Positions 1,737 through 23,537 of a DNA stretch of 64,000 nt are shown here, piece by piece. This stretch comes from Bacteroides finegoldii DSM 17565. Lineage in GTDB: Bacteria > Bacteroidota > Bacteroidia > Bacteroidales > Bacteroidaceae. The stretch is taken from positions 186,001-250,000 of the forward strand of contig NZ_GG688320.1 in the NCBI RefSeq assembly GCF_000156195.1, read 5' to 3'. Below the pieces are notes generated by a model, which ran no database searches, was not told the origin of the DNA, and saw only the letters and a program-made list of their open reading frames with translations. Position numbers and translations under genes: made by a program. The number at the start of each line of letters is the position of its first letter. Within the stretch, counting starts at the first letter, position 1.

Positions 1737-1813
1737 GTGTTATACTAAAAGTATCAGCGCCAACCACAAATACACATCTCTTGCCCTTGGTATTTTACTA
1801 TACGAAGGGCAGA

Positions 1814-1846
1814 TTTGTTTAAAATCCAAAGAAATAACTATCTTTG
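1814..1846 (+). promoter_or_regulatory. Bacteroides-type promoter of the chimeric gene
   Basis: TTTG (1814-1817), 21 bp, then TATCTTTG (1839-1846), which is the classical -33/-7 arrangement. Transcription would start near 1853, which rules out the TTG at 1844 and supports the ATG at 1874 as start. It lacks the locus operator described for the other promoters. Confidence 0.75.
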
Positions 1847-1873
1847 CCTGCATATAACACATATAAATCCACT

Positions 1874-3370
1874 ATGAAGAAGAATACATTCCTTATATTA
1901 TCGCTTTTATTGCTTTATCTCTATCCACTGTCGGCCTCCGTGGAAATTCGCTCCAATAAGCTGACTACCGGAGATGGATTAGCAAATAATTCGACCCGCT
2001 ATATGATGCAGGACAGTAAAGGATTTATCTGGCTGGGAACTCTCAACGGATTAAGTTATTATGACGGCAATTCTTTCGCATGGAATGATTTGTATGAAAT
2101 CGTAGCGCGTGCCAATATGTTCCTCAGCAAAACGGACGGTGTTACTTTCTCCGACGAAAAGATAAAGAATCAGTTTATCGGTGAAGCCAAATTCCTCCGG
2201 GCATTGGCTTACTTCGACCTGGTTCGTTACTTCGGACATATCCCCATCGTATTGGAACCTGTATCGGTGAATGAAGCAATGACCATCAAACAGTCAAAAC
2301 AAGTCGATGTTTACGAGACCGCAATTGTCCCCGATCTGGAAGATGCAGTGAGAAAGCTGGTAGACACTCCCTTGAATTATCAGGGAAACAATGCTTCTGC
2401 CGGACGCGCCACCTTAGCCGCTGCCAAATCGTTGCTGGGACGTGTTTATCTGACAATGGCAGGATATCCCGTGCAAGACGAATCCAAGAAAGCATTGGCG
2501 GAACAGCTATTCAGTGAGGTGATAGACTATGCCCGCGCCAATAATAAATATTGGGCACAAACGGGTGACGAATGGCAGAAAGTGTGGATCAGCGACAATG
2601 ATAACAAATACCATATTTTTGAAATTCAATACATAGCTTCCAAAAACTATGGTAATCCGATGGTGTTCAACTCGGTTCCGCAAGTGAATGATTCGTATAC
2701 AAAACTGGAAATGTCCGGTAATAGAATATGGTGTGAAGCCAGACTGGCAGGACGTTTCAAATTAATGGATACGGAAGGGGTGTCTTTGGATATACGTTGT
2801 CCGAGCACGATTTACACGGATGATTTCGTGGATGACGACGGTGTGCCTTATACGGGCGGTCCTTTCTTCCAGAAGTTCTTTGAACATAAGATGAAACGCA
2901 AGATGCTAGGTTACGAAGATATTGATGCACAGATTGCAGACCGTACCTATTTCCCTATCAATTATCCGATAATCCGTCTTGAAGATGTAATGTTGATGTA
3001 TGCCGAAATTGTAGGACCTACCGATAAAGCAAAATCATTGGTCGATGATATTTGCGAACGTGCCGGTGTCCCAACCGTACCCGATCATGTTACTCCCGAA
3101 GAATTTGCCGAAATTGTAGACTGGCAACGCCGTCTTGAACTGGCTTCCGAAGGCATCCGCTGGCATGACCTCGTACGCCAAAACCGTTATGTAGAGGTAT
3201 TGCAGGAAATGTTTAAGTTTAATGGCTCGGACGAGAACGGCGTGATTAGCAAACCGGAAACATACGAACTATATAAATTGGTTACAAAAGACTCATATAT
3301 CTATCCGATACCCGACTCGCAAATGAAGGTAAAAGAAGGGCTATATGAACAAAATAAAGGATATAATTAG
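1874..3370 (+). pseudogene. In-frame chimera: HTCS N-terminus fused to SusD C-terminus
   Basis: Residues 1-68 from the ATG at 1874 are the signal peptide and first propeller motif of a hybrid two-component regulator (TGDGLANNSTRYMMQDSKGF, then NGLSYYDGNSF). They align closely with the intact HTCS at 19203-23537 (DGLPNNSIRYIYQDTKGF, NGLSRYDGNSF). From base 2078 (AWNDLYEIVARANMF) the protein is a SusD/RagB outer-membrane glycan-binding protein through its normal C-terminus (PIPDSQMKVKEGLY). About 100 SusD N-terminal residues, including the lipobox Cys, and nearly all of the HTCS are absent. The frame stays open across the join and no insertion sequence is present. The product would be exported by a Sec signal but not lipidated and has no adjacent SusC, so function is doubtful. 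I infer a deletion of several kb; an assembly misjoin is the alternative. Confidence 0.85.
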
Positions 3371-3408
3371 ACGATACAATACCGGCATTCATTTATTAAA
3401 AGGTTGAT

Positions 3409-3454
3409 AAGAAAAGTCCTCCGGTCTGGTTCTACGGATCGGAGGACTTTTCTT
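3409..3454 (+). terminator. Strong bidirectional hairpin terminator
   Basis: A perfect 15-bp inverted repeat (AAGAAAAGTCCTCCG at 3409-3423, its complement at 3440-3454) with a 16-nt loop that can pair further, followed by a T/A-rich tail. It lies 38 bp after the chimera stop. Confidence 0.85.
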
Positions 3455-3943
3455 TATTATTATATTTTTCTTTATTATATAAGGTTTACTTGTATCAATT
3501 CCCCTTAGCTTTGGAACGTAAAGACCGTATGCTTTATCGGAAACATATAGACGAGGTAAGCACTTCTCCCGCACAAACTAATCATTGCATACCGTAATAC
3601 TAATAAAGTCTCCTAATAGAATTAAGATATTACACTTGAGCAACCTCAATAATACACAAGTGTAACCATTAAGTCAGACTTGTGCATCATCACGGTTGCC
3701 CAACAGCAACAGACTAATCGTAAACAAGCAGAATAATATAGAAGTAACAGGCTGATGAACAGACTGTTATCCAGAAAGTGCAATTTTATTTCCAAAAAGA
3801 GCGAAAACGACCTTATGTTTTCTGTAAACTTACTTTAATTTAGGGGCATTTTCATCATTAAGTATCTGATTATAAGCGATGTGACATTTTTGTTTTTCCC
3901 CGTATAAAACTTAAAATAAAGACAATTTTGTTGCACTGAAGAA
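3455..3943. other. Long AT-rich intergenic region without a gene
   Basis: I see no credible coding sequence. The only structure is a 9-bp inverted repeat (TTACACTTG 3630-3638, CAAGTGTAA 3657-3665), with an overlapping alternative pairing of GAGCAACC (3638-3645) and GGTTGCCC (3694-3701, 7 of 8). Its role is unknown. The region may be leftover DNA from the rearrangement that made the chimera. Confidence 0.5.
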
Positions 3944-3991
3944 ATAAGAATGGGGAAAACTGTCCTTACATACAGCTTTCCCCATTCTTAT
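3944..3991 (-). terminator. Terminator of the fimbrillin-like operon
   Basis: Perfect 15-bp inverted repeat (3944-3958 and 3977-3991), extended by CTGT/ACAG after one mismatch, with an 8-nt loop. It lies 17 bp past the stop of the 4009-4782 gene. Confidence 0.85.
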
Positions 3992-4008
3992 AAGAAATGA
4001 ATCTTCTT

Positions 4009-4782
4009 TTATTTTCCTATGGCACCAGCCCAGTCTTTGGCAAAGCGGAAATTACCGATATTTCCTTTAAACCCATTACGGTTTCTGAGTGCGACAGACT
4101 TCAGACCTGCTTTCAAAGCACCTTCTTCACCAGTAACTACTATATCTGCTTTTGGCTCGCTCTGTCCCAATTCCGGATCTACAAATAATGAAACTTCATT
4201 CTTCGTATAGTCTACCTTCAAGACCAATAAATGAGTTTTATTATAATCATAAGCCATCGGAGCTTCAGCACGTTCTTTCAACAATCCTACTGCAAATTTG
4301 ATTTTATCATTTCCTTCGCGTCTCACATATACCTGACCACGATTTCCACCACCTACATAACTGGCACTGGCAGCCAAGAAGTCGGCCAAGTTTGTTCCGA
4401 CTTTAGAGAAATTCGCCAGACAGGCAATATAATATGTACCTTTAGAATATACTTTTCCGGATTCAACCAATGAATATACGCTGACACGAGAGCCTTTCAC
4501 ACCTTGCGGAAAACCCAAAGTGATAGATGGCCCCGCTTCACTATATCCCTCATAAGTCAACGCCTTTCCTATCGTAGGGCTTACCGATCCTTCAACCGGT
4601 TTAGAAGTAAAACCACCACACCAAGTATCTACGTTGATAGGCGCTCTTTTATCATTATAAACTGTTTTCTCCAAAACATCACCTTCTTTATAACCTTTCA
4701 ATAGGTCATTCTTAACGATTTGAGCCTGACTGCCTAATGCTACAGCAGCTAAAGCTATTGATACAAATACTTTTTTCATCAT
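4009..4782 (-). CDS. Secreted LamG/concanavalin-like protein of unknown function
   Basis: A 257-residue protein with a Sec signal peptide ending near ALGSQAQ and no lipobox Cys, so probably periplasmic or released. The body is rich in beta-strand-like segments. It includes GKVYSKGTYYIACLANF, a phrase usual in laminin-G/concanavalin-type jelly rolls, and ends in GFKGNIGNFRFAKDW, the final strands seen in such folds. It is the last gene of a minus-strand operon behind three fimbrillin-like lipoproteins (18 bp after the previous stop) and is followed directly by a strong terminator. By position it may bind carbohydrate or cap the fimbrillin-like proteins, but no catalytic motif is visible. I cannot assign a function; the fold call itself is tentative. 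Confidence 0.7.
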   Translation of the reverse strand: MMKKVFVSIALAAVALGSQAQIVKNDLLKGYKEGDVLEKTVYNDKRAPINVDTWCGGFTSKPVEGSVSPTIGKALTYEGYSEAGPSITLGFPQGVKGSRVSVYSLVESGKVYSKGTYYIACLANFSKVGTNLADFLAASASYVGGGNRGQVYVRREGNDKIKFAVGLLKERAEAPMAYDYNKTHLLVLKVDYTKNEVSLFVDPELGQSEPKADIVVTGEEGALKAGLKSVALRNRNGFKGNIGNFRFAKDWAGAIGK

Positions 4783-4800
4783 TTTCTTATATTAATTCAT

Positions 4801-6402
4801 TCAAAAAGCAAAAGTAAAACGAAGATATGCCGTTCTAGTAGACTTATAGGCTCTAGCTTCCTTGATACTTTTTTCTGTTACTTTACTATTGTATGCATAC
4901 ATCATTTGGTTGTTAAATTCAGTACTTGACCAATAACCTAGTTGTTTATCATTAAGTACAAAATCCATTTCCTTTTGCTGCATTATTTCTAGCTTCTGAT
5001 TCACTATATCCTTATTTTTATAAAGTATAGCCAATTCCTGAATAGAAGGAATAAACCAGTTTGTCGTCATTTCAGGTAGTAAACAATTATCACGATATCC
5101 CTGTAAACTTCCAATATTAATATATTCAGATCCAGGTGCTTGTTTTACTATAGTTTCTATTACCTTTATGTTATTATATCCAAGCATTTTTTCAAACTTA
5201 CTTGAAATTCCATAATCTGCTATTTGCACATTGAAAAAAGAACTCTGCAAAGATAATGTTTCAAACCATTTACCAAACTCTATACTTTTCTTTTCCGTCT
5301 CCCAATAAATACGTTCATCTTCTCCATCAGTCAAAGCAACAACAAAAGCATGATTACATGCAGGATAGTCACGTTTCAATGCATCTTTAGTCACATCTCC
5401 ATATTCACCCTCATATAATTCAGAAGGAAAAGTTTTTCCCACATAATAAACCACACCAATACATCCTTTGACCGGAGGATTTTCATCTGTCACAGAGACA
5501 ATGTTACCATCTGCATAATAAAAATCACCCACCTGCAAATGATGTTTCTTTTCCTGATGACCACCATCAACAACGAAGCGTTTATATTTGCCTTGTTCCA
5601 TTTTACCTTCTGTCACTAGTGAACATTTCTTTCCATTATAATACCCTGTAATCGTTTCTGCAGACGACGGTTTTCTCAACAAGCGATACTCATCCTTAGC
5701 TGCATCATAATAAGGCAATATTTTCTCCTCTCCTATCTCAAACGAAATACTCGCCGGATTCGGTTTCGCAATATAAGGAGTTTCTTCCGGAAGTACCGTT
5801 CCCTCTGCATCCGTAAATAGATAATGTGTAGAAGGCAACTTCACCACAACCAGACTCATACGATGCGATAATTGAAAACTCAATGAATAATTTCCATTTT
5901 CACCAATTAGCTCCGTCTTACCCGAAGTCATTAAATCCTGTTTTGCGTACTCTTTCTGGTCACTTTGTGCATTAGTCAAATTCCAACTATCTACAAGAGG
6001 AGCAAAGAAATCCTCTCCCTGCAAATCAGTTTTACCCGTCATATCTGCTTGATAAGGATAATACGCATAAAATACTACGCCTTCCAAGCTTTCATCATAT
6101 AATATCGGCTTACCCGACCAACTAGAACCATTGTAAGTGAGCAGCATATTATTTATTTCATCCATAATCACACCATCCTTCACTGCGAACAGTCCTAATT
6201 GATCACCCTGCGTGAAGGTAGTCACAAATCCGTCGTCAACCGTGCGCGTCTGCGATTCACTACTTACCAACCCTGTATCAGCCACATTCAATACAACCAG
6301 ATTTTGCTGATTTACTTGTGTTTCTTCATCCTGTGAGCAGCTTGCACAACCCAATGCCAACACTGCCAACAACAGCTTTTGTATAAATTTATATTGTTTC
6401 AT
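4801..6402 (-). CDS. Fimbrillin-like lipoprotein with C-terminal Lcl/DUF1566-like domain
   Basis: 533 residues. The signal peptide ends in LGCASCSQ, a type II lipobox. Residues about 50-300 show the fimbrillin (Mfa/FimA-like) pattern common in Bacteroides: TRTVDDG, TFTQGDQLGLFAV, VVFYAYYPYQ, then a SHRMSLVVVKLP strand. The C-terminal part has WFIPSIQEL and YWSSTEF, typical of the Lcl/DUF1566 fold. It is a clear paralogue of the protein at 37603-39228, sharing FYAYYPY, the DYPACNHAFVVAL/DYPNCKHGLVLAL block and YWSST. It is third in the operon starting at 8300. Fimbrillin-family proteins are known as pilins or surface anchors. Here, coregulation with the pectin locus suggests a surface glycan-binding role (inference). 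Confidence 0.82.
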   Translation of the reverse strand: MKQYKFIQKLLLAVLALGCASCSQDEETQVNQQNLVVLNVADTGLVSSESQTRTVDDGFVTTFTQGDQLGLFAVKDGVIMDEINNMLLTYNGSSWSGKPILYDESLEGVVFYAYYPYQADMTGKTDLQGEDFFAPLVDSWNLTNAQSDQKEYAKQDLMTSGKTELIGENGNYSLSFQLSHRMSLVVVKLPSTHYLFTDAEGTVLPEETPYIAKPNPASISFEIGEEKILPYYDAAKDEYRLLRKPSSAETITGYYNGKKCSLVTEGKMEQGKYKRFVVDGGHQEKKHHLQVGDFYYADGNIVSVTDENPPVKGCIGVVYYVGKTFPSELYEGEYGDVTKDALKRDYPACNHAFVVALTDGEDERIYWETEKKSIEFGKWFETLSLQSSFFNVQIADYGISSKFEKMLGYNNIKVIETIVKQAPGSEYINIGSLQGYRDNCLLPEMTTNWFIPSIQELAILYKNKDIVNQKLEIMQQKEMDFVLNDKQLGYWSSTEFNNQMMYAYNSKVTEKSIKEARAYKSTRTAYLRFTFAF

Positions 6403-6424
6403 ATCCGATTCTTAGTTTTGAATA

Positions 6425-7315
6425 TTACTCTGCATCATCAGTTCCTTCCACTGATTCATCATCACCATCCCATGACGCTGAATTCTTCTCTACTTCCACC
6501 ACGAGTCCCGGTTTTCCTACTCCTACATTATATGTATACTGGTGTCCGCTTTCCAAAATTCCTTCACCATTGCCCGGTGTATGGGCAAACTTTCTCCCAT
6601 CTTTCAACTCTACCTGAAAAAACAATTTACCTGACATATCCTGAGGAACCGTCAACATCTGATAAGAAGCGACATAATCTTTTCTAACCTCCGATACAAA
6701 CGGATGCATCACGGAAGTCTCCACACCCTCTGCAGGGCTGATCTTCCCTTCGGAAACAGTTGCTTTTGTCACAGTTCTTACAGTAAATACCGCACCTTCC
6801 AAATCTGTCTCTGATACCGTATCGTCATCTCCTTTTACATTAATAATCAACTTAACCGTTCCATGACGGAAAGTAAGTTTCCGATCGCTACGGAATTTCA
6901 TCTTTTCATACGCATAAAGGAAATCCGCCTGATTGTACGCCTCTTCAGTAGTCTGATCTTCCGGTACAGTCCATCCGGTCAGCAATGTCTCCGAAGCCGG
7001 ATACCAGGCAAATAAAGTCTCTTCCTCCGTAGTTGTGTACCAATAAAGAGGATCGTTATTCTTGGCTGTCATTTCCTTGGAAGCCGAAACCTCATATAAT
7101 TTCTGCGTAACGCCATCATAAAGAGATATTTCCTCTCCACCATTCCAAGAGGTCTTTTCTCCAATAGCACGGGTAAAGGTCATATCCGCCTTTTCCGCCA
7201 TCAATTCTACCGGATACTTATTATTCTGAAAGTCATCTTCTGCCATATCGGTACACGCTCCGAAGAAACCTGTTACCATCAATAAGCAAGAAAGGGCTAA
7301 TTTATTTCTTTTCAT
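6425..7315 (-). CDS. Fimbrillin-like lipoprotein
   Basis: About 296 residues from the ATG at 7315 (MKRNKLALSC). The longer reading from 7342 adds nine residues without signal-peptide character. The lipobox is FFGAC. The fimbrillin-like pattern is TFTRAIGEKTSWNGGEEISLY, LFAWYPASE, LTFRHGTVKLIINV and a C-terminal GHQYTYNVGV strand, the usual end of such domains. Between its neighbours it is spaced by 22 bp (downstream) and about 34 bp (upstream), so it is cotranscribed. Unlike its downstream neighbour it lacks the Lcl-like domain. It has no counterpart in the second fimbrillin cluster at 37603-40304, which has only two genes. Exact role unknown. Confidence 0.8.
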   Translation of the reverse strand: MKRNKLALSCLLMVTGFFGACTDMAEDDFQNNKYPVELMAEKADMTFTRAIGEKTSWNGGEEISLYDGVTQKLYEVSASKEMTAKNNDPLYWYTTTEEETLFAWYPASETLLTGWTVPEDQTTEEAYNQADFLYAYEKMKFRSDRKLTFRHGTVKLIINVKGDDDTVSETDLEGAVFTVRTVTKATVSEGKISPAEGVETSVMHPFVSEVRKDYVASYQMLTVPQDMSGKLFFQVELKDGRKFAHTPGNGEGILESGHQYTYNVGVGKPGLVVEVEKNSASWDGDDESVEGTDDAE

Positions 7316-7349
7316 ACCGTTCTTTTTTTGAATCCTTATCATGCTTTAT

Positions 7350-8300
7350 TCACTCTGTCACTGACGCTGTCACATCCTTTTCATCTTCCTCAACCCAATC
7401 GGCAATTTCAGCAGTCTTAATAGTCATGGCGGGATTTTCAAATGTCACATTGTAAGGATATGCATGACCGGCCAACAGATTTTGTGCAGGAACATATTCA
7501 GTATAAGTCTCATTATTCATTCTGACTTCCAACAACACACTTTCAGTCATTTCTTGCGGGAACAGGATGATGGAAACATTCATTTCCCCTTCCGACGGTT
7601 TGGCTACATCCACTGTCAACTCAGAATCAGGAGTAGCTCCTTCTTTAGCAACCGCCTCTCCGGTATTCACATCAAATGTACCTTCCAGTTGCAGACTTTT
7701 CAGATGTACAGTCATATCATTCAATGTAGCACCATTCTTTGCTGCGAAACGAAGAATGATTTTAGCCATCCGATGTGTAAAATTAAATGTTACGGGAGAA
7801 TCCGCATATACTTCGGTAGCCTCTGCGAAAAGGAAGTCAATCTGAGGTTGTTTATCGACAGACTGTTCCGCTCCGCTTATTTTCTTTGTTATCACTCCTT
7901 CTTCTCCCGGCAAAGCACCGTTCTCTCCCTGATAAGGATAATACGCCGCCAATGTGTATGCGCCATCACCCTTCAAACGGATATTGTTATCCACAGAACC
8001 TTCGTTCACAACACGGAATGCATTGCCATTGTCTTTACGATACTGAATATTGATATAAGTATCGACTGCATTACCACTCGTCGGTCCGTCCACAGTGACT
8101 CCGATACGGTCGTCAGCTCCCCAGTTTGAGCCGACAGCACGGGTATTCTGAACATCAGTCGCATCATTGATAGTTCCCAAAATCTCGATTGGATTATAAG
8201 CACGGTCCGCTTTTCCCGATTCATCATCACTACAAGCTGTAAAAGCCAATGATACTGCCATAGCGACAGCCAGATACATGTTTTTCATTGATGTCTTCAT
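7350..8300 (-). CDS. Fimbrillin-like lipoprotein, first gene of operon
   Basis: 316 residues. The signal peptide and lipobox end in LAFTACSDD. Fimbrillin-type features: TRAVGSNWGADDRIGVTV, TLAAYYPYQGE, FNFTHRMAKIILRF, and a C-terminal GHAYPYNVTFE strand followed by a short acidic tail. It parallels the protein at 39288-40304 (TRATDTQWEVGDSIGIS, LSFNHKMSRLKVEF, ILLPQTV), so the two clusters start with orthologous-looking paralogues. It is the promoter-proximal gene of the 8300-to-4009 operon and is headed by the shared locus operator. This argues for expression during pectin growth rather than a housekeeping pilus. The start at 8300 is chosen; Met5 (8288) is also possible. Confidence 0.82.
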   Translation of the reverse strand: MKTSMKNMYLAVAMAVSLAFTACSDDESGKADRAYNPIEILGTINDATDVQNTRAVGSNWGADDRIGVTVDGPTSGNAVDTYINIQYRKDNGNAFRVVNEGSVDNNIRLKGDGAYTLAAYYPYQGENGALPGEEGVITKKISGAEQSVDKQPQIDFLFAEATEVYADSPVTFNFTHRMAKIILRFAAKNGATLNDMTVHLKSLQLEGTFDVNTGEAVAKEGATPDSELTVDVAKPSEGEMNVSIILFPQEMTESVLLEVRMNNETYTEYVPAQNLLAGHAYPYNVTFENPAMTIKTAEIADWVEEDEKDVTASVTE

Positions 8301-8331
8301 TTTTAAGTTATTATTTTCCGATTGTTTTTTG

Positions 8332-8381
8332 CAAATGTAAGCCTACTTATCGAAGTGCACAATGGACGATTGTACGCAAAT
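8332..8381 (-). promoter_or_regulatory. Promoter and HTCS-type operator, fimbrillin-like operon
   Basis: Read on the minus strand, the -7 box is TACATTTG (8332-8339). The operator box on the plus strand begins AATGGACGATTGTACGCAAA at 8361, that is 22 bp from the -7 box. A TTG (8360-8362) lies where the -33 is expected. The same box with the same spacing occurs at 9743-9792. Confidence 0.75.
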
Positions 8382-8409
8382 GACTTGGTAATCATCCATT
8401 GCTTCCCCT

Positions 8410-9690
8410 TTAATTGCCGTCCGGTTTTTCTATCTCCGTAAATGGACATAAATTCCATTTGAAGGTTTCAAATTTATCCGGTTGGGCAGGGTTGAATCCT
8501 TTATAATCTGCTCTCAAATAATTGACAATATCCAATTTTGCCTTTTTCATTCCTTCCACCACACACTTCGCAGTCTCATAAGCGCCATACGTGCTGAAAT
8601 GAGAATTATCCTTGAACTCTCTCGTTTGTCCGGGAAAAGTTCCTGCCGGATAGTGAACATATAATTTCATGGAGCCGTCAACTCCTAAAGCATCACAAAG
8701 CATGGTTGTCATCCCATTAAGCTCTATCAAAGGAACATTCTCCTTTTGTGCTACCCAACGAATAGCGTCCGGATATTCCCCATGTGTATTTACAGATTTT
8801 CCTTCTTTGTCAAAACGACGGCGACAAGTAGGAGTGACCAGCACCGGATTGGCTCCCTTAGCACGGGCCTCATCAATAAATATTTTCAGATTATAGACAA
8901 AAGAAAAGTAAGCCCCTGTTCCCGGTTGCTTCTGCTTTTGATCATTATGACCGAATTCAACGAGAAGATAATCTCCTTTTTTAATCTGGGACATGATTTT
9001 TTTCAAACGGTTGCCACTGATAAAAGTATTAGCGGACAAACCGGATTCGGCATGATTGGCTATACACACTTTATCCGTGAAGAAACGGGGAATCATTTGT
9101 CCCCAAGCTCCCCAAGGTTCATTGTCGTAGTCTACAACCGTTGAATTGCCACAAAGATAAACGGTCGGAACGTTCTCCACAGGTTCTATTATTAAAGAGT
9201 TCAAACGGGGAGATTCTCCGTTAAATTCCAGTGTCAGTTTATCATCCCAATTAAGTTTATTCTTCTCACGGGATTTGATACGTACTCTCTCTTTCCCGGA
9301 TATTTTAATATTACGCTTATTAATTGTAAACGTCTCTGTTTTCAATTCCCCTTTCTTGGTAGACAGGTTCTCTATAAACAAACGGCGCGACTCACCACGT
9401 ACCGTAGTGCTGGAGGGTTCATTCTTACTGCCTATGACCACTGTCACTTTATAATTTCCATCAGGAACATTCACCGAAAAGAAGAAAGGTTTGTTACTTT
9501 TGCCATCCCATGCGGGTTGCAAATCATACCCATAGCCTTGTTCATTGTTAAACAAAGTCTGAGGCGTAACCTTCAAATACCCCTCCTTTACTTTCTTATC
9601 CGAACTAAAATCGAACTTATAGGTCTGCTTTTGGGCAACACATATCGTTGCAACCAGTAAAACATTTAGCAATAATGCAATCTTTTTCAT
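8410..9690 (-). CDS. CE12-type SGNH rhamnogalacturonan acetylesterase
   Basis: 426 residues from the ATG at 9690. The reading from 9723 would leave almost no leader after the promoter at 9743. A Sec signal peptide (ending ICVAQ) precedes an N-terminal beta-sandwich, galactose-binding-like domain (about residues 20-170: YKFDFSSD, VPDGNYKVTV, TVRGESRRLFIENL). The SGNH hydrolase domain follows, with GNST (Ser183), GHND (Asn249) and the DNSH pair (Asp361, His364). CE12 enzymes remove O-acetyl groups from pectin backbones, which fits the neighbouring lyases. It is a close paralogue of 45068-46306: both share the N-terminal domain and the final FTEIEKPDGN. It sits alone in its transcript, just downstream of the operator at 9772. 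Periplasmic location inferred. Confidence 0.9.
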   Translation of the reverse strand: MKKIALLLNVLLVATICVAQKQTYKFDFSSDKKVKEGYLKVTPQTLFNNEQGYGYDLQPAWDGKSNKPFFFSVNVPDGNYKVTVVIGSKNEPSSTTVRGESRRLFIENLSTKKGELKTETFTINKRNIKISGKERVRIKSREKNKLNWDDKLTLEFNGESPRLNSLIIEPVENVPTVYLCGNSTVVDYDNEPWGAWGQMIPRFFTDKVCIANHAESGLSANTFISGNRLKKIMSQIKKGDYLLVEFGHNDQKQKQPGTGAYFSFVYNLKIFIDEARAKGANPVLVTPTCRRRFDKEGKSVNTHGEYPDAIRWVAQKENVPLIELNGMTTMLCDALGVDGSMKLYVHYPAGTFPGQTREFKDNSHFSTYGAYETAKCVVEGMKKAKLDIVNYLRADYKGFNPAQPDKFETFKWNLCPFTEIEKPDGN

Positions 9691-9742
9691 TATATCTGAA
9701 TTATTTAAAGTTGAACATTTCATCGCGTTCTCTCAATTATCG

Positions 9743-9792
9743 CAAAGATAGCGGGAATCAAGTAATCGGATAATGGAAAATTATACGTTAAT
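9743..9792 (-). promoter_or_regulatory. Promoter and HTCS-type operator, CE12 esterase
   Basis: Minus-strand -7 box TATCTTTG (9743-9750). The operator box on the plus strand reads AATGGAAAATTATACGTTAA from 9772, 22 bp away. A downstream half TTATCCATT with AATGGA gives partial dyad symmetry, as in the 8361 box. Confidence 0.75.
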
Positions 9793-9860
9793 ACAGGGAG
9801 GATTATCCATTCACGGCTTTTCCTGTCCCCCAAAAGCCTGGTTCTTCTACATATATACAA

Positions 9861-9911
9861 AAACGGTTGAAAGCCAATGCATCTTTTCCGATGAATTGTT
9901 TTCAACCGTTT
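9861..9911 (-). terminator. Terminator after the GH105 gene
   Basis: 12-bp inverted repeat AAACGGTTGAAA (9861-9872) and its complement (9900-9911). The inner pairing CAATGCATC/GATGAATTG has one mismatch. It lies just past the stop at 9952 on the minus strand. Confidence 0.75.
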
Positions 9912-9951
9912 CAATAAAATACAGTTGGTTTCTTTATTACTTAAAGAATGC

Positions 9952-11073
9952 TTATTTCAGTTTATACACTTCCGTTCCGGCAAGCAGGAAACAACCTACA
10001 CCGTAATCTTCAAAATCAGGCACACTCTTATAAGTCACCGGTTGTCCGTCTTTCGGCTCTTTACCCGTCCCTTGAACATAACCCAAGAATCCGTTCGGAT
10101 GAACAGCGTCTTTTACCATAGCATTCCATGCTTTCAAAAGAATGGGCAGATATTCACTACGGTCCAACAAGCCATTACGCACTCCCCAAGCCATTCCATA
10201 TACAAAAAGAGCTGTTCCGGAAGTTTCTTTTCCACCGAAGTTGGTAGGATCATGCAGGCTGACATTCCAGAAACCATCTTCACGCTGGCATTTCTTCAAT
10301 GCCTTACTCATGGTAAGGAAATCATTTATATAATCCTGACGATGCAGCTCGTCTGACGGGATTTCGTTCAGCACACGTACCAAAGCGGCATATACCCATC
10401 CGTTGCCACGACTCCAATAGCAGTCTTCACCGTTCGGTTCCTTATAAGGAGGGTTAAAATCCTGATCGCGCCACCACAAGCCATCCTTCTGATTGAACAT
10501 ACCTGTTTCGTCATGCTGGCTGCGTGTATAGTAATACATATCCCACATCTTATCATAATATTTCTGCTCTCCGGTCATTTTTCCGAATTTGGCAAAAATA
10601 GGCATTGCCATCTGTACGGCGTCAATCCACCACCAGTCATTGACTTGCGGAGTATTTACCACCATATCAATGGATAGTTTGATATTCTTAATCATCTCCG
10701 GTTGGGGACAGATATTATATAAATCGATATAGGTTTGTCCGCAGCAATGGTCATCGGCATTGCGGGTAGTGTTGCCATTACGCATTCCCCATTTATGGAA
10801 AGCTGCCCAATCATAAGCATATTCATAATAATCCTCGCGCGGATAGATAGAATGGAGCGACATCAGTCCTTCATAATAAACACCTCGTGTCCAGATATTG
10901 CTCGGACGTACACGGCCGTAAAAACTGGGAATCGTGTAATCGGCATACTTTTTCATAAAGTAACCGTTCACTTTTTTCATGACTTCCAGCGTTTCCTTTC
11001 GGTCGGGCAAAGATTGGGCACTGACAGAAACCGTCAACGCAAGAAAGAATAAGAGTACTAAATTATTTTTCAT
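9952..11073 (-). CDS. GH105 unsaturated rhamnogalacturonyl hydrolase
   Basis: 373 residues, the usual length for YteR/YesR-type GH105. The signal peptide ends VSVSAQ, so it is probably periplasmic. GH105 enzymes hydrate the 4,5-unsaturated galacturonate that PL11 lyases leave at the non-reducing end, releasing it from rhamnose. The alpha/alpha-barrel signatures are present: RNADDHCCGQTY (residues 104-115) and WWWIDAVQMAMP with the catalytic Asp at 151, plus CYWSRGNGWVYAAL and GTALFVYGMAWG. The gene is divergent from the GH106 rhamnosidase, with which it shares a two-sided operator region. Together they would strip the disaccharide products: first the unsaturated uronate, then rhamnose. Confidence 0.93.
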   Translation of the reverse strand: MKNNLVLLFFLALTVSVSAQSLPDRKETLEVMKKVNGYFMKKYADYTIPSFYGRVRPSNIWTRGVYYEGLMSLHSIYPREDYYEYAYDWAAFHKWGMRNGNTTRNADDHCCGQTYIDLYNICPQPEMIKNIKLSIDMVVNTPQVNDWWWIDAVQMAMPIFAKFGKMTGEQKYYDKMWDMYYYTRSQHDETGMFNQKDGLWWRDQDFNPPYKEPNGEDCYWSRGNGWVYAALVRVLNEIPSDELHRQDYINDFLTMSKALKKCQREDGFWNVSLHDPTNFGGKETSGTALFVYGMAWGVRNGLLDRSEYLPILLKAWNAMVKDAVHPNGFLGYVQGTGKEPKDGQPVTYKSVPDFEDYGVGCFLLAGTEVYKLK

Positions 11074-11107
11074 GTGTATTCAAAATGATTAATTAAACTT
11101 CATGCCG

Positions 11108-11157
11108 CAAAAGTAGATGGATTAATCGTACGAAACAATGTACATTTGTACATAATT
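11108..11157 (-). promoter_or_regulatory. Promoter and HTCS-type operator, GH105 gene
   Basis: Minus-strand -7 box TACTTTTG (11108-11115). The operator box reads AATGTACATTTGTACATAAT from 11137 on the plus strand, 22 bp away. It is the left half of an inverted pair with the box for the divergent GH106 gene. Confidence 0.78.
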
Positions 11158-11161
11158 CTAT

Positions 11162-11210
11162 GTATTAGTACAAATATGCATTTTTTTAAGGAAAGAATGC
11201 CGTAATTTAG
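11162..11210 (+). promoter_or_regulatory. Promoter and HTCS-type operator, GH106 gene
   Basis: The -7 box is TAATTTAG (11203-11210). The operator half GTACAAATATGCATT ends at 11182, 21 bp before it. Its complement AATGCATATTTGTAC matches the opposite box AATGTACATTTGTAC at 13 of 15 positions, so the two promoters are mirror images. Confidence 0.72.
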
Positions 11211-11260
11211 CAACGTGAAAAGAAACAGCCTCACAAAGCTAATGATACATATATAAAAAC

Positions 11261-14017
11261 ATGAAGAAAAATACACTATTGATAGGTCTCCTGCTTGTCA
11301 GCGGAACCTTAGCGGCACAAGATTGGCCGACAGTCCAAACAGAAGCGCGTCCCGGCAGCAGATGGTGGTGGATGGGAAACACAGTCGATATTCCCAATCT
11401 GACTTACAACATCGATGAATATGCTAAAGCCGGGTTGGGAACATTGGAAGTGACTCCAATCTACGGGGTACAAGGAATGGACGACAAAGAACTGAAATTC
11501 CTGTCACCCGAATGGACGGCTATGTTAAAGCATACCCAGGCAGAAGCAAATAGAAACGGTATGCAGATTGATATGAATACCGGAACCGGCTGGCCTTTCG
11601 GAGGACCGGAAGTTACGTTGGAGGACGCTGCCACCAAAGCCATATTTCAGGAATACAAGATAGAAGGAGGGGAAGAAAACATTCTCAATCTGGAGGTAAA
11701 AGACCCTAAACAAGCAAAGGTTGCAAAGTTGAATAAAGTTATGGCCTACAATGCACAGGGACAGAAACTGGATATTACCTCAAAAGTAAAAGATTACCGG
11801 CTCACATGGAAAGCTCCCAAAGGAGAATGGCGAATTATTGCATTATATATAGGAAAGACACAGCAAAAAGTAAAGCGTGCCGCTCCCGGAGGAGAAGGTT
11901 ATGTAATGAACCACTTGGATAAGGGAAGCGTTAAACGTTATCTTGACAAATTCGACAGGGCTTTTCAAAGAGATAAGGTCACTTACCCCAAAACATTCTT
12001 CAATGATTCGTATGAAGTGTACCAAGCCGATTGGACACCTGCCCTATTGGAAGAGTTCGCCCGCCGAAGAGGATACAAATTAGAAAATTACTTCCCCGAG
12101 TTTCTGGATGAAAAACGACCGGAAATAACGACACGCATCATAACGGATTACCGGGAGACGATCTCCGACTTACTGATTGAGAACTTTACCCGGCAATGGA
12201 CTGCATGGGCACATAAGCATGGAAGTATCACGCGTAATCAAGGGCATGGTTCACCCGCCAATCTGATTGATGTATATGCCTCCGTAGATATTCCGGAATG
12301 TGAAGGTTTCGGACTTTCCCAATTCCATATCAAAGGATTACGCCAGGATTCACTTACCCGCAAGAACGATTCGGACATTTCAATGCTGAAATATGCCTCT
12401 TCCGCTGCCCATATCACAGGAAAGCCATATACATCCAGTGAGACGTTTACCTGGTTGACGGAACATTTCCGGACTTCACTGTCTCAATGTAAACCGGATA
12501 TGGATCTGATGTTTGTCTCCGGAGTGAACCATATGTTTTTTCACGGCACCCCCTATTCTCCCAAAGAGGCGGAATGGCCGGGCTGGTTATTTTACGCCAC
12601 TATCAATATGTCACCGACCAATAGCATCTGGCGTGACGCCCCGGCTTTTTTCCAATACATCACCCGTTGCCAGAGTTTCCTGCAAATGGGTAAGCCTGAT
12701 AATGACTTCCTTGTTTATCTTCCGGTATATGATATGTGGGAAGAACAACCGGGACGGCTTCTCTTATTCGACATCCACCAAATGGCCAAGCGTGCTCCGA
12801 AGTTTATAAAAACCATCCACCAGATAACCTCCAATGGTTACGATGTAGACTATATTTCGGACAAGTACCTCCAGAATACCCGCTACGAGGGAGGAAATCT
12901 CCGTACAGAAGGAGGCAGTAACTATAAAGCAATTATCGTGCCCGCTGTAAAATATATGCCGGAGAAAGTATTGGCACATCTAGTCTCATTGGCAAAACAA
13001 GGAGCAACAATTGTATTCATGGAGAATTATCCTAAAGATGTTCCCGGATTCGGTAATCTGGAAAGTCGCAGAAATGCTTTCACAAAAGTTCAAAAACAAC
13101 TTCCCGACATCAGCGATTTTAACCAAAGCATTAGCAGTTCATTCGGAAAAGGACATATCATAACCGGTACGGATTATGCTGCGACATTAGGTAAATGTAA
13201 GGTAATGCCTGAAGAGATGAAGACGAACTTTGGTCTGCAATATATCCGCCGCCAACACAGCACCGGACACCATTATTTCATCTCTTCTTTGCAAGACAAA
13301 GGAGTAGATAATTGGATTACTCTCAGTGTTAATGAACCAACAGCCATGCTGTTTGATCCGATGACCGGAGAAAAAGGAAAAGCGCAAACCCGGATAAAGG
13401 ACGGAAAGTTACAAGTATATCTGCAATTACAGTCCGGCGAAAGTGTGATTATTCAAACATTCGATCATCCGGTTGAGACTCAAGCATGGAAATATATCCA
13501 AGAGCAACCTGTCAGCCTCAGCCTCGACCATGACTGGACGTTGCGTTTTGTACAAAGTACCCCCGCTATCGAAGGAACTTTCGCTATCGATAGCCCGACT
13601 TCATGGACGGAAATCAACCATCCAAACGCAAAAATCAATATGGGCACAGGGTTATACAGTCTTGAGACAGTTCTGCCTGCGCTGAACGCTGATGATTGGA
13701 TTCTCGATCTGGGAGATTTGCGGGAAAGTGCTCGCATACGCATTAACGGTAAAGAAGCGGGAACTGTCTGGGCCGCACCTTTCCGGTTAAAGGTCGGCAA
13801 ATATCTGCAACCGGGCAAGAATCTGATTGAGATTGAGGTGACCAATCTTCCCGCTAACCGTATTGCAGAATTGGACAGACAAAACGTTCCCTGGCGCAAG
13901 TTTAAAGAAATCAACTTTGTAGGACTCAACTACAAAAAGAATAAATACGACAGTTGGGAAGTCCTTCCTTCAGGCCTCAATGGAGGTGTGAAACTGATTC
14001 CGATAACTACTTTGTAA
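11261..14017 (+). CDS. GH106 alpha-L-rhamnosidase
   Basis: 918 residues with a Sec signal peptide (ending GTLAAQ). The N-terminal GH106 signatures are clear: RPGSRWWWMGNTVD, the AKAGLGTLEVTPIYG loop, FLSPEWTAMLKHTQAEA and MNTGTGWPFGGPEV. The central barrel includes PYTSSETFTWLTEHFRTSLS and GVNHMFFHGTPYSP, typical of this family. The C-terminus ends in a jelly-roll (LDLGDLRESARIRINGKEAG) that resembles a GH2-type sugar-binding domain. GH106 enzymes remove alpha-L-rhamnose by inversion. Here the likely substrate is backbone rhamnose of RG-I oligosaccharides freed by GH105 (inference from context). The 3' end overlaps the convergent GH2 gene by 11 bp. Confidence 0.92.
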   Translation: MKKNTLLIGLLLVSGTLAAQDWPTVQTEARPGSRWWWMGNTVDIPNLTYNIDEYAKAGLGTLEVTPIYGVQGMDDKELKFLSPEWTAMLKHTQAEANRNGMQIDMNTGTGWPFGGPEVTLEDAATKAIFQEYKIEGGEENILNLEVKDPKQAKVAKLNKVMAYNAQGQKLDITSKVKDYRLTWKAPKGEWRIIALYIGKTQQKVKRAAPGGEGYVMNHLDKGSVKRYLDKFDRAFQRDKVTYPKTFFNDSYEVYQADWTPALLEEFARRRGYKLENYFPEFLDEKRPEITTRIITDYRETISDLLIENFTRQWTAWAHKHGSITRNQGHGSPANLIDVYASVDIPECEGFGLSQFHIKGLRQDSLTRKNDSDISMLKYASSAAHITGKPYTSSETFTWLTEHFRTSLSQCKPDMDLMFVSGVNHMFFHGTPYSPKEAEWPGWLFYATINMSPTNSIWRDAPAFFQYITRCQSFLQMGKPDNDFLVYLPVYDMWEEQPGRLLLFDIHQMAKRAPKFIKTIHQITSNGYDVDYISDKYLQNTRYEGGNLRTEGGSNYKAIIVPAVKYMPEKVLAHLVSLAKQGATIVFMENYPKDVPGFGNLESRRNAFTKVQKQLPDISDFNQSISSSFGKGHIITGTDYAATLGKCKVMPEEMKTNFGLQYIRRQHSTGHHYFISSLQDKGVDNWITLSVNEPTAMLFDPMTGEKGKAQTRIKDGKLQVYLQLQSGESVIIQTFDHPVETQAWKYIQEQPVSLSLDHDWTLRFVQSTPAIEGTFAIDSPTSWTEINHPNAKINMGTGLYSLETVLPALNADDWILDLGDLRESARIRINGKEAGTVWAAPFRLKVGKYLQPGKNLIEIEVTNLPANRIAELDRQNVPWRKFKEINFVGLNYKKNKYDSWEVLPSGLNGGVKLIPITTL

Positions 14018-19202: not shown

Positions 19203-22200
19203 TTAGTTTTCCGGTCTATTTTCTTCTTGTTCACCGGATTTCTCTTCTGGTAGCTCTTCCTCCGGTACAGCATCTCCGTCTACTCCGCGCTGATACACAG
19301 AAGGCGCTACACCAAAATGCTCCTTAAAACATTTACTGAAATAGAACGGACTATTAATCCCTACCCGATAAGCCACTTCCGAAACCGTCAACCGTTCATC
19401 CGACGATAATAGCTCGGCAGCTTTCTTCATACGTACTACACGTAGATATTCATTAGGGGAATAACCTGTCAAGCCACGTAATTTTCTATAAAATACCGTC
19501 CGCCCCAATTTCATAAATTGCGCAAACTCATCCACAGAGAACTCCGGTCGGGACAGATTACGCTCCATCACAATATCCAACCTTTTGGCAAACTCTTTAT
19601 CCCGGTCGGTAGCACAAATCGTAGTGCGCACTCCCTTCTCACTGGAGAATTTCTCTTTCAGTTTATCACGCTGTTCTATCAAACGGAATACCCGTGCCAA
19701 CAATAGTTTGATGCTGAAAGGTTTCGCAATGTATGCATCGGCGCCGGCCTCAATACCTTCCAAGTGTTTTTCCGCAGAATTCAATGCCGTCAACAAAATT
19801 ATCGGTATATGACTGGTTGCAAAATCCGTTTTCAGCTTCTTTGTCAACTCAAATCCTGTCATTCCCGGCATTAGCACATCACAGATTATCAAGTCCGCAT
19901 CATACGTAGTCGCTTTTTCGAATCCGGAAATTCCATCGGCAGCCACTTCCACCTCAAAATACACGCCAATCTCTTCCTGTAGGAATTGACGGATATCATT
20001 ATCATCCTCAATAATCAAGATTTTCCGTTTATTCAAAGGAGTCGTCATTTTATCCTGTCCGGGCAGTTCTTCCGGCAATTGTTCCAAATGGTGATTCCAG
20101 CTATCCGCTTCTTGCAACAGCACATTACCGGCAACCAGAAAATCTTTCTCTTCATAAACTGTCTTATCTGTCGGAATACACACCGTAAACACAGAACCGC
20201 CACCTTCGTTATCTCTATACTCAATAGTCCCCTTATGTACCTGTACCAGTTCATGGCTCAAATGCAAACCTACTCCAATACTGTCACCGGAGAAATTACT
20301 TTGCATAAAACGTTTGAATAACTCATTCTGCTTCTCTTTCGGAATACCGACTCCCGTATCTGAAACCTGAATCTGCAAAATCTTCTTCACCTCATCCACA
20401 TTTACAGACAGGATAATAATACCCTTAGAAGGAGTATATTTAAATGCGTTGGAAAGCAAATTATAAGTCACCTTATCCAAGTTGCCCTTATCAATAAACA
20501 TTTTGTAAGAAGGGACGGAAGGCTGGAATCGAAAATCCATCGCTTTTTGTTCCGCCACATCACCGAAACTCAGAAATATCTCGTAGAGGAAAGAAATTAC
20601 ATCCGTCTCTTCAAGGGAAAGAGCCAGTTTATTATTCTGCATTTTCCGGAACTCAAGCAACTGATTAATAAGGCGCAGCATACGTTGAGTACTCTTATCC
20701 ATTGTCTTTAACGGATGTACCAACTCACGCGGAATATCAGTCACACGCTGTATCTTTTCCAAAGCCCCGTGAATCAATGTCAGAGGGGTACGGAACTCAT
20801 GAGATATGTTTGTAAAAAACACAAGCTTGTATTCCGTCAGTTGCTTTTCTATATTGATACGGTTGCGTAAGCTATTGAAATTATGGATAATACGGAAGGC
20901 AAGATACAGGGCTATAACCAATACCAGAATATAACCGAATACCGCCCAATTAGTCTTCCAAAACGGAGGAACCACAACAATCTTCAAAGTAGTCTCATTT
21001 TCATTCCATATTCCCGAGCCATTGCAAGATTTTACATGCAACAGATAGGTTCCCGGATTGAGATACTTAAAAGATGCGAAATTAAGAGAAGACGGAGCAC
21101 TCCATCCTTTATCATAATTCTCCAGCCAATACATATATTTCGTACGTCCGCTATCCGAATAGTCCAGTGTTGAGAAGTCTATCAGAATGGAGCTTTGATA
21201 ATATTTCAAAGAAATCTCGTCCGAATAAGCCAGTGACTGTTGCAAAGGCGAATCCTCCATTTCGGGATTCATCTGGATTCCATTCACATACAAATTAGTG
21301 AAAACAACCGGAGAAAAAGAATCACTGTTTTGTATCTTCTCCGGATCAATGACAATCATTCCATAGTTTGTTCCAAAAAGCAACTTGCCGTCTTTTCCCA
21401 CACAAGCACTGTTCTCACTATATACATTTCCTAAAGTATAAGAAGAGAAATAATAATTATCAGAAGAATGAGTAACCGGATTAAACTTCGAAATACCATA
21501 CTCGGTAGCCACCCATAAGTCACCGTTTTTATCTCCGAGAATGGATTGGATAACATCGTTTACCAACCCTTCGTCTGTTCCGTAATTCTCATATTTCAGC
21601 AAATCATAGTTTTCTTGTGGTTCACAAAGATTCAATCCCGACCCCGACGTACCAATCCACATACGCCCCTTATCGTCCCGATAGATACATTTAATCTCAT
21701 TACTACAGAATTTACCGTTCGTGTAGCTGAACAAATGATAATTATCGGCATCGGCAATCAATGAGTCAGGATGGAAAATGCATATTCCCTCGCTGGTTCC
21801 CACCCAAACCATACCGTTCTCGTCTTCTTCTATCACACGAACCATCCGCAGGCCCAACCTTTCCTGAAAAAAGTGCCTGAATTTATATCCCCCGTCCGCA
21901 GTCGGTTCAGCCAAATCAAGTCCTCCCCCGAAAGTACCTACCCACATCCGGTCTTTCCGGTCACGATAGATCGAAAAGACATCATTAGCGGATAATGTAG
22001 TCGGATTCGAAGGATCATTGACATACCATGAATCCGCTATCTTTAATCCGTTTCCACGAGTCCCCATCCACATTTTCCCTTCTTTATCCTCAGTAATGGC
22101 ATAAATGTTGGAATGAAAATACTGATTTGTTATCTTCGAATGAAAATCCGAGTCAATGGTATACAGTCCTCCCCTACGCGTACCAAACCAGATATCTCCG

Positions 22201-23537
22201 TCGGATGTCTTAGTCAGCATACGAATGGTATTCGAACGGTCGAACAAATCGGGAGATTCCGGATAAATACGAGAAGTACCTTCGTTCAAAACAGAGATAT
22301 GGGATAATCCGGAATACTCCGAACTTACCCAGATTCCACCGGAACGATCCTCCATCACATAAAGCAGGAAATCTGAAGCGATATGACTTTTATCGTTTAT
22401 ATTGGCCAGAAAATGTTCCAATTTATCCTCAGCCGTATCATAGGCAAAGAGACCATTACCATACGTAGATATCCAGATAATGCCACGCGAATCGTGCACA
22501 ATATGATAACGCTCAAAATCGATATAGCTCAACTTGTCTTGGGGAATCAACCGGAATTCCTTTATTTTTCCACTATCGGCTGTGATATAGGTAAGACACC
22601 CTGTGTGATTAAAAATCCAGTAATCACCACGATTGTCCATTGTTAATTTGCCATGTTTGATATTCAGGCGGGAATCCGCAGCTATTTCTCCGGTACTGAA
22701 ATCATACATATACACTCCGGTAGTAGTAAGGATCACCCATTGGTCCTTCAACAGAAAATTCCCGGTAGGTGATGTTTTTCCCGCAATAGAAGCAATAGAA
22801 GCACATTTTTTCATCTTTTGCGTAGTAGCCTGATAGCAATAGACATCTCCCTCTTCCGTCAGAAAATACATATCATTCTTATAGGACTGAGAAAAAGCAA
22901 AATGAATCAACCGGTCTTCAATCCTGTACTGACCGTTAGAAACGGATACTAATCCGCTCTGTGTCCCAATCCATATCCGTCCATCCGCACCCTCACTGAC
23001 AAACCGCACTCTATTGTCCGGCATATTGCCCCGTTCTGTTTTAAACACAGTCGATGTCATCTCTCCGTTATCCTTATGAACGATTCTCCGACAACCATTT
23101 CCGGAATGCCATAACCACACATCACCATTGTTCGCTACGAATATAGTCGAATAGTTCTGCCTCAAATCTCCGCAACCTGTATAATCAACGAAACGTGCAC
23201 GCTGCAGGTCATAGCAACTGATCAATTCCGGTGTCGTAGAAATCCATAGAAAGCCATCCTTGTCTTCTGTAAGGTCAAAAATACGGTTATCAGACAACGA
23301 TACTTTATCTCCGGCTTGCGGGCGGAATGTCAGAAACGAATTACCATCATAACGGCTCAGTCCATTCAAGGTTGCCAGCCATAAGAATCCTTTAGTATCC
23401 TGATATATATAGCGAATAGAATTGTTGGGCAAACCATCACTTGTTCTCATTTGTGTAGAGCGAAGTTCAGTCGCCCCGTAAATGTTCAGCACAAGACCGA
23501 TAGATAAGATGAAGAATAAGATATGTCTGTTTATCAT
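19203..23537 (-). CDS. Hybrid two-component system regulator (HTCS)
   Basis: 1444 residues, full length. Order: signal peptide; two seven-bladed propellers made of repeats such as GFLWLATLNGLSRYDG and RMWVGTFGGGLDL (to about 750); Y_Y_Y domain; one membrane segment near 870; HisKA with the phospho-acceptor His in NISHEFRTPL (about 912); HATPase with DTGVGIP; receiver domain with Asp in DLIICDVLMPG (about 1219); AraC-type helix-turn-helix to about 1415; acidic tail. HTCS proteins sense oligosaccharides in the periplasm and activate their locus from the cytoplasm. It is central in the cluster, and its own promoter carries the shared operator, implying autoregulation. It is the only intact regulator here, since a second copy survives only as the 1874-3370 chimera. 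Confidence 0.96.
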   Translation of the reverse strand: MINRHILFFILSIGLVLNIYGATELRSTQMRTSDGLPNNSIRYIYQDTKGFLWLATLNGLSRYDGNSFLTFRPQAGDKVSLSDNRIFDLTEDKDGFLWISTTPELISCYDLQRARFVDYTGCGDLRQNYSTIFVANNGDVWLWHSGNGCRRIVHKDNGEMTSTVFKTERGNMPDNRVRFVSEGADGRIWIGTQSGLVSVSNGQYRIEDRLIHFAFSQSYKNDMYFLTEEGDVYCYQATTQKMKKCASIASIAGKTSPTGNFLLKDQWVILTTTGVYMYDFSTGEIAADSRLNIKHGKLTMDNRGDYWIFNHTGCLTYITADSGKIKEFRLIPQDKLSYIDFERYHIVHDSRGIIWISTYGNGLFAYDTAEDKLEHFLANINDKSHIASDFLLYVMEDRSGGIWVSSEYSGLSHISVLNEGTSRIYPESPDLFDRSNTIRMLTKTSDGDIWFGTRRGGLYTIDSDFHSKITNQYFHSNIYAITEDKEGKMWMGTRGNGLKIADSWYVNDPSNPTTLSANDVFSIYRDRKDRMWVGTFGGGLDLAEPTADGGYKFRHFFQERLGLRMVRVIEEDENGMVWVGTSEGICIFHPDSLIADADNYHLFSYTNGKFCSNEIKCIYRDDKGRMWIGTSGSGLNLCEPQENYDLLKYENYGTDEGLVNDVIQSILGDKNGDLWVATEYGISKFNPVTHSSDNYYFSSYTLGNVYSENSACVGKDGKLLFGTNYGMIVIDPEKIQNSDSFSPVVFTNLYVNGIQMNPEMEDSPLQQSLAYSDEISLKYYQSSILIDFSTLDYSDSGRTKYMYWLENYDKGWSAPSSLNFASFKYLNPGTYLLHVKSCNGSGIWNENETTLKIVVVPPFWKTNWAVFGYILVLVIALYLAFRIIHNFNSLRNRINIEKQLTEYKLVFFTNISHEFRTPLTLIHGALEKIQRVTDIPRELVHPLKTMDKSTQRMLRLINQLLEFRKMQNNKLALSLEETDVISFLYEIFLSFGDVAEQKAMDFRFQPSVPSYKMFIDKGNLDKVTYNLLSNAFKYTPSKGIIILSVNVDEVKKILQIQVSDTGVGIPKEKQNELFKRFMQSNFSGDSIGVGLHLSHELVQVHKGTIEYRDNEGGGSVFTVCIPTDKTVYEEKDFLVAGNVLLQEADSWNHHLEQLPEELPGQDKMTTPLNKRKILIIEDDNDIRQFLQEEIGVYFEVEVAADGISGFEKATTYDADLIICDVLMPGMTGFELTKKLKTDFATSHIPIILLTALNSAEKHLEGIEAGADAYIAKPFSIKLLLARVFRLIEQRDKLKEKFSSEKGVRTTICATDRDKEFAKRLDIVMERNLSRPEFSVDEFAQFMKLGRTVFYRKLRGLTGYSPNEYLRVVRMKKAAELLSSDERLTVSEVAYRVGINSPFYFSKCFKEHFGVAPSVYQRGVDGDAVPEEELPEEKSGEQEENRPEN

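Follow-up and report, generated by a model that had tools for sequence, protein, structure and literature searches.

An in-frame HTCS-SusD reading frame as the probable scar of an inter-species exchange in a rhamnogalacturonan-type PUL island of Bacteroides

How a single open frame came to begin as an HTCS regulator and to end as a SusD, immediately beside a rhamnogalacturonan lyase gene, is the question raised by this locus. The frame lies in the window (the whole stretch of DNA that was analysed, 64,000 nucleotides), which sits on contig C30 of genome G000, a 33-contig draft, and which was compared with the relatives G106 (main contig of 5.24 Mb), G021 (a single contig of 6.47 Mb), G086, G012, G091, G110 and G127. 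The open frame at 1844-3370 (+) given in the preliminary description is present in the list of open reading frames, although its start is more likely the ATG at 1874 than the TTG at 1844. The TTG (1844-1846) forms the final three bases of TATCTTTG, a -7-like box, and was rejected as the start codon for that reason; from the ATG the frame runs for 498 codons without a stop. A pattern scan together with the upstream sequences of relatives places the promoter-like boxes of the former HTCS gene at 1814-1846 (+), with TTTG at 1814 and TATCTTTG at 1839-1846 separated by a spacer of 21 bases. The arrangement TTTG-N21-TATCTTTG is one that we take to be the Bacteroides promoter pattern. Both boxes are identical in G021 and are also found in G086, and the upstream box differs in G106.

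The first 68 codons (1874-2077, +) are the remnant of a regulator of about 1445 residues and are identical to the start of the G021 HTCS; over 1740-2078 all 339 of 339 bases match the G021 HTCS start and the region upstream of it. The encoded residues read as a signal-peptide-like N-terminus followed by the first propeller repeat, to judge from their sequence, and Reg_prop was not called by Pfam in the fused frame at the cut-off of E<=0.001. These N-terminal 68 residues had been described as belonging to an HTCS related to the one at 19203-23537, which holds when the 68 are counted from 1874: residues 6-68 share 59% identity (38 of 64 aligned positions) with this intact paralog (-, 1444 residues; Pfam Reg_prop, Y_Y_Y, HisKA, HATPase_c, Response_reg and HTH_18). 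By Pfam the G106 HTCS has its periplasmic propeller, kinase, receiver and AraC-type DNA-binding domains all present. The fused frame lacks this domain set, its only Pfam matches being two SusD domains.

From 2078 to 3370 (+) the frame consists of SusD codons 105-534 and the stop, with 98.3% DNA identity to the SusD region of G106 over 1319 bases, and both SusD_RagB and SusD-like_3 score above the Pfam cut-off. Of the 191 positions of SusD-like_3, the intact G106 SusD matches from position 2 and the fused frame from position 59 (59-191). The earlier reading of a SusD from 2078 minus its first ~100 residues and lipobox is borne out, with 104 codons gone, the signal peptide and lipobox included (the N-terminus of G106 SusD is MKLYKYIICGGLALTLTLSSCES, read as a lipobox by eye). 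The intact SusD has 34 distinct relative sequences in the PDB; structure prediction for the fused frame from the single sequence gave a mean pLDDT of 35.8 and was uninformative. A paired SusC adjacent to the fused frame is absent. The neighbours are the PL11-type rhamnogalacturonan lyase gene (1-1736; feature at 3-1736, +, with the 5' end outside the window; Pfam RGL11_C, 765 bits) and an ORF at 4009-4782 with no Pfam match, and at 4801-8300 (-) three adjacent fimbrillin-like Mfa_like_1 genes lie beside the pectin island. Just 3' of SusD, G106 carries an insertion sequence with a Mutator-type transposase (G106:2771223-2772452) between two copies of TCATTTAT, and comparison with G106 marks an empty target site TCATTTAT in the window at 3389-3396 (+).

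In G106 and G021 the locus is intact, and its genes follow one order on one strand: PL11-type lyase, HTCS (1433 or 1445 residues), GH2 (987), SASA-family esterase (292), SusC (1043) and SusD (534 residues), the Pfam names of the lost genes being taken from the G106 proteins. Missing between the points that meet at 2078 are 11,955 bp by the spacing in G106 and 11,982 bp by that in G021. The two halves are separate in all five relatives in which both were matched here (G106, G021, G086, G012 and G091), at distances of 7.8-12.0 kb, with alignments placing them ~11.9 kb apart in G086 and in G091 and ~7.8 kb apart in G012; the G012 locus (L032) has a 990-residue ORF after SusD, and gene order varies among the relatives. 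A multi-kb loss of the remainder of the HTCS, a SusC and the start of SusD had been suggested from the sequence; it comes to about 12 kb, includes the GH2 and esterase genes as well, and alignment of the flanks places a full HTCS and a SusC/SusD pair in this same position in G106 and G021. When the missing 12-kb stretch of G106 was used as a DNA query against the G000 draft (the esterase being covered by this query alone), no close copy was present among the matches listed, which comprised HTCS paralogs at 65-68%, short repeats or motifs and the known SusD part. The best-scoring G000 match of the lost SusC reached 37% (short N-terminal stretches up to 46%) and that of the lost GH2 38% (one stretch of ~100 residues at 41%). 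With the HTCS kinase and regulator domains, GH2, esterase and SusC lost, we infer that this sensing and uptake set would have been abolished.

At the level of single bases, the HTCS parent reads ...AATTCTTTCGTCAAT... and the SusD parent ...ACTCTTTCGTCTGCATGG... where the window reads ...AATTCTTTCGCATGG..., and the parental alignment leaves one base common to both at the join, G2078 (+). The product is in frame, as the preliminary description had it. A 9-base match, TCTTTCGTC, occurs in both parents and overlaps the join; when two points were drawn at random 20,000 times, 0.13% of the draws gave a match of at least 9 bases no farther than 12 bases from both. A plain exchange at TCTTTCGTC would nevertheless have left 4 more bases than are observed and a product out of frame, and the join did not arise in that simple way. 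The ORF list agrees with the statement that no mobile element lies at the join: no other ORF of at least 90 residues is present in 1737-4008, and a transposase at the join was rejected on this ground. An integrase-made join was likewise rejected, the sole PF00589 match on C30 being ~82 kb away (C30:105776-106264). This match is near the right end of a ~95-kb stretch (C30:11843-107570) that has no match of at least 700 bases in the fetched G021 and G106 regions and that is perhaps ICE-like, with its tyrosine integrase.

What the preliminary description had missed is that the two halves differ in origin, with the switch at the junction itself. Ancestry was profiled in 400-base bins against G021, G086 and G106. 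Bins -2400 to 1999 are 93.8-100% identical to G021 (97.8% over the 4.4 kb left of 2078, of which the final 339 bases are identical), and across the PL11 gene (bins 0-1599) identity is 94-98% to G021 versus 71-80% to G106; G110 aligns at 94.2% over -1845 to 1738. On the other side of 2078, bins that align show 93-99% identity to G106 and 71-84% to G021, bin 4800-5199 has no alignment to G021, G086 or G106, and from 5600 on the window is 97-99% identical to G106. Between the join and C30:322644 the pieces aligned to G106 are 95.4-98.5% identical, separated by four unaligned gaps of ~0.6-12.4 kb, the largest at C30:244634-257036. The ancestry switch and the deletion junction are the same base, 2078.

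Which side is foreign was judged against the genome background in two 20-kb samples, from contigs C26 and C28. Their collinear parts are 93-98% identical to G106 versus 79-88% to G021 and G086. The left block, at 93.8-100% to G021 in bins, compares with 81-88% to G021 in the collinear C26 and C28 parts, and is nearer to another species than is the genome background. The background is itself patchy: at ~6,870-13,018 the C28 sample is 85% identical to G021, and for the greater part of this segment its identity to G106 does not exceed 78%. Because the collinear parts of C26 and C28 are mostly G106-like, on balance the left block appears to be the foreign one and the right side native. Farther left, -6800 to -2801 (C30:179200-183199) is 97-99% identical to G086 in every bin and 92-96% to G106, C30:160001-176152 is 92% identical to G127, and C30:171923-176201 is 98% identical to G110 and 97% to G021. 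At least two sources thus contributed to the mosaic left flank, in which a G086-like block stands upstream of the G021-like block, and since it holds G086-, G127- and G110-like parts no one relative stands out as the donor. G106 in turn carries an 18.2-kb block (G106:2720714-2738929) that is 96% like G021 5650393-5668607 and was not found in G000; this block reads as another exchange in the same island, which is mosaic in G106 too.

Taken together, the fused frame is very probably a recombination scar, left in one or two steps by an inter-species exchange in a rhamnogalacturonan-type PUL island. A segment from another species would have become attached to the native locus, and the HTCS-GH2-esterase-SusC-SusD set would have been lost in the process. 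The fused frame itself is most likely a young, non-functional relic. If expressed, its product would be an exported, non-lipidated SusD without its N-terminal fifth and without a SusC partner; a regulator promoter driving the SusD fragment is possible, the promoter-like boxes being kept. In a single step, a non-homologous or microhomology-assisted event would have linked the right end of the foreign segment, inside the HTCS gene, to SusD. In two steps, a homologous exchange would have ended within the now-missing 12 kb, and the border would have been erased by a later, independent deletion, for which short repeats in the HTCS and SusD genes may have served. This second course is possible but doubtful: the TCTTTCGTC match lies near both ends, order and spacing are the same in the relatives, and the exchange model outlined in PMC8845570 has homologous ends, but two events are needed where one suffices, and a plain exchange at the 9-base match would not give the join observed.

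An assembly misjoin, by which a contig from a contaminating strain was attached to a native contig at 2078, is improbable. The misjoin of two contigs had been offered as an alternative to the deletion, and that ancestry changes exactly at the join, in an assembly of 33 contigs, speaks for it. The synteny kept on both sides disfavours it, since each side retains the place and orientation of the intact loci in G106 and G021, and so does the tie between the left end of C30 and the native contig C32, which share an exact 186-base repeat at their facing ends (C30:32-217 = C32:396985-397170). This repeat corresponds to one point in G106 (87% over 165 bases) and in G021 (85%), at which both genomes pass from the genes of C32 to those of C30, and C32 is 98.6% G106-like up to C32:393728. 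C32 extends 3.8 kb past its copy of the repeat, so that the two contigs do not simply abut, and an insertion bounded by a direct repeat probably lies between them; the sequence at the end of C32 looks like the beginning of a transposase gene. A second native left flank was not seen among the 11 G000 matches of G106:2740001-2758000 (six on C30, two at the C32 end and three on C25 and C33 at 68-79%). Further against a misjoin, the left block is a mosaic rather than a single strain, the contamination estimate for G000 is 0.33%, and the parental overlap of 1 base, or at most 9, would be too little for an overlap-based join.

That the fusion is instead a working gene, a periplasmic SusD-like binding protein expressed from the HTCS promoter and kept by selection, is most improbable. 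It is in frame and free of stops throughout, with its promoter-like boxes and signal-peptide-like start kept, and non-synonymous changes are few. From SusD codon 105 to the stop, 19 codons differ from G106, of which 16 differ synonymously (the stop counted), and the base differences comprise 16 synonymous and 5 non-synonymous; four of the codons are assigned to the G000 branch (one non-synonymous), six to the G106 branch (none) and nine are ambiguous (two non-synonymous). A recent origin accounts for such low divergence, which fits a recent event and is no proof of lost function. Chance alone gives an in-frame join 1 time in 3, while the lipobox, SusD residues 1-104 and the SusC partner are all missing, and the junction occurs in a single genome of the 158 searched.

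The remaining explanations were rejected: a deletion alone within one lineage, with no exchange, by the switch at 2078 from a G021-like left to a G106-like right, and a conserved fusion family by the distribution of the junction. The case of relatives all carrying the same fused gene, named in the preliminary description as evidence against a real loss, was not observed; a 30-base junction pattern with at most 3 mismatches, a search that a diverged fusion would escape, was found across 158 genomes of the genus only in G000. A DNA search of 149 genomes of the genus, an even sample of a larger set with G000 among them, gave a match in 51, with many of the matches short.

The one-step course would resemble HFIR, a process in which the other end of the incoming DNA is joined by homologous recombination within the same event and recipient DNA can be lost. 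Its illegitimate ends of 3-10 bp identity are described, in the account given in PMC6382021, for transformable bacteria. Here one end of the incoming DNA would be joined with 1 shared base and an overlapping 9-base match that does not give the observed product; unlike HFIR in transformable bacteria (PMC6382021), the present event is known from the sequence of one join. B. ovatus and B. xylanisolvens exchange PUL islands, mostly without mobile-element functions, and a two-node homologous model is outlined for them in PMC8845570. The present locus is like the exchange described there in involving a variable PUL island and a block nearer to another species than to the background, and like those islands, of which most variable regions are described as being without mobile-DNA functions and genes as eliminated as well as added (PMC8845570). 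Unlike the nodes on both sides in that model, the visible (right) border lies here inside two different genes that share 1 base.

The island also resembles the B. thetaiotaomicron RG-I PUL BT4145-BT4183, for which PMC3878776 and PMC3243724 report two related HTCS genes, BT4178 and BT4182, assigned to rhamnogalacturonan; when BT4182 was disrupted, growth showed no defect on those pectins that were tried. In the window, similarly, the fused gene has a PL11-type lyase beside it and a related HTCS at a distance of 16 kb. Among the open-access papers listed, no title or abstract opening named such an HTCS-SusD fusion. The exchange of PUL islands is known; new here is an ancestry switch placed at base level, with an apparently non-homologous border.

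At this locus the border of an exchange between species, within an island for pectin use, is resolved to the base, and the genes that went missing are identified. It indicates that a strain can lose a glycan sensor and transporter set through an exchange of this kind. Where an annotation shows one isolated in-frame 'fusion' ORF, that ORF may accordingly be a scar rather than a new protein. We suggest, tentatively and from this one junction, that PUL exchange between species of gut Bacteroides may finish with one homologous end while a microhomology-type join within unrelated genes seals the other, in which case the gain of a foreign block and the deletion of a resident set would be a single event, with chimeric genes as its scars. 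Should one-sided joins of this kind prove frequent, the loss of whole sets from PUL islands without mobile elements would be accounted for.
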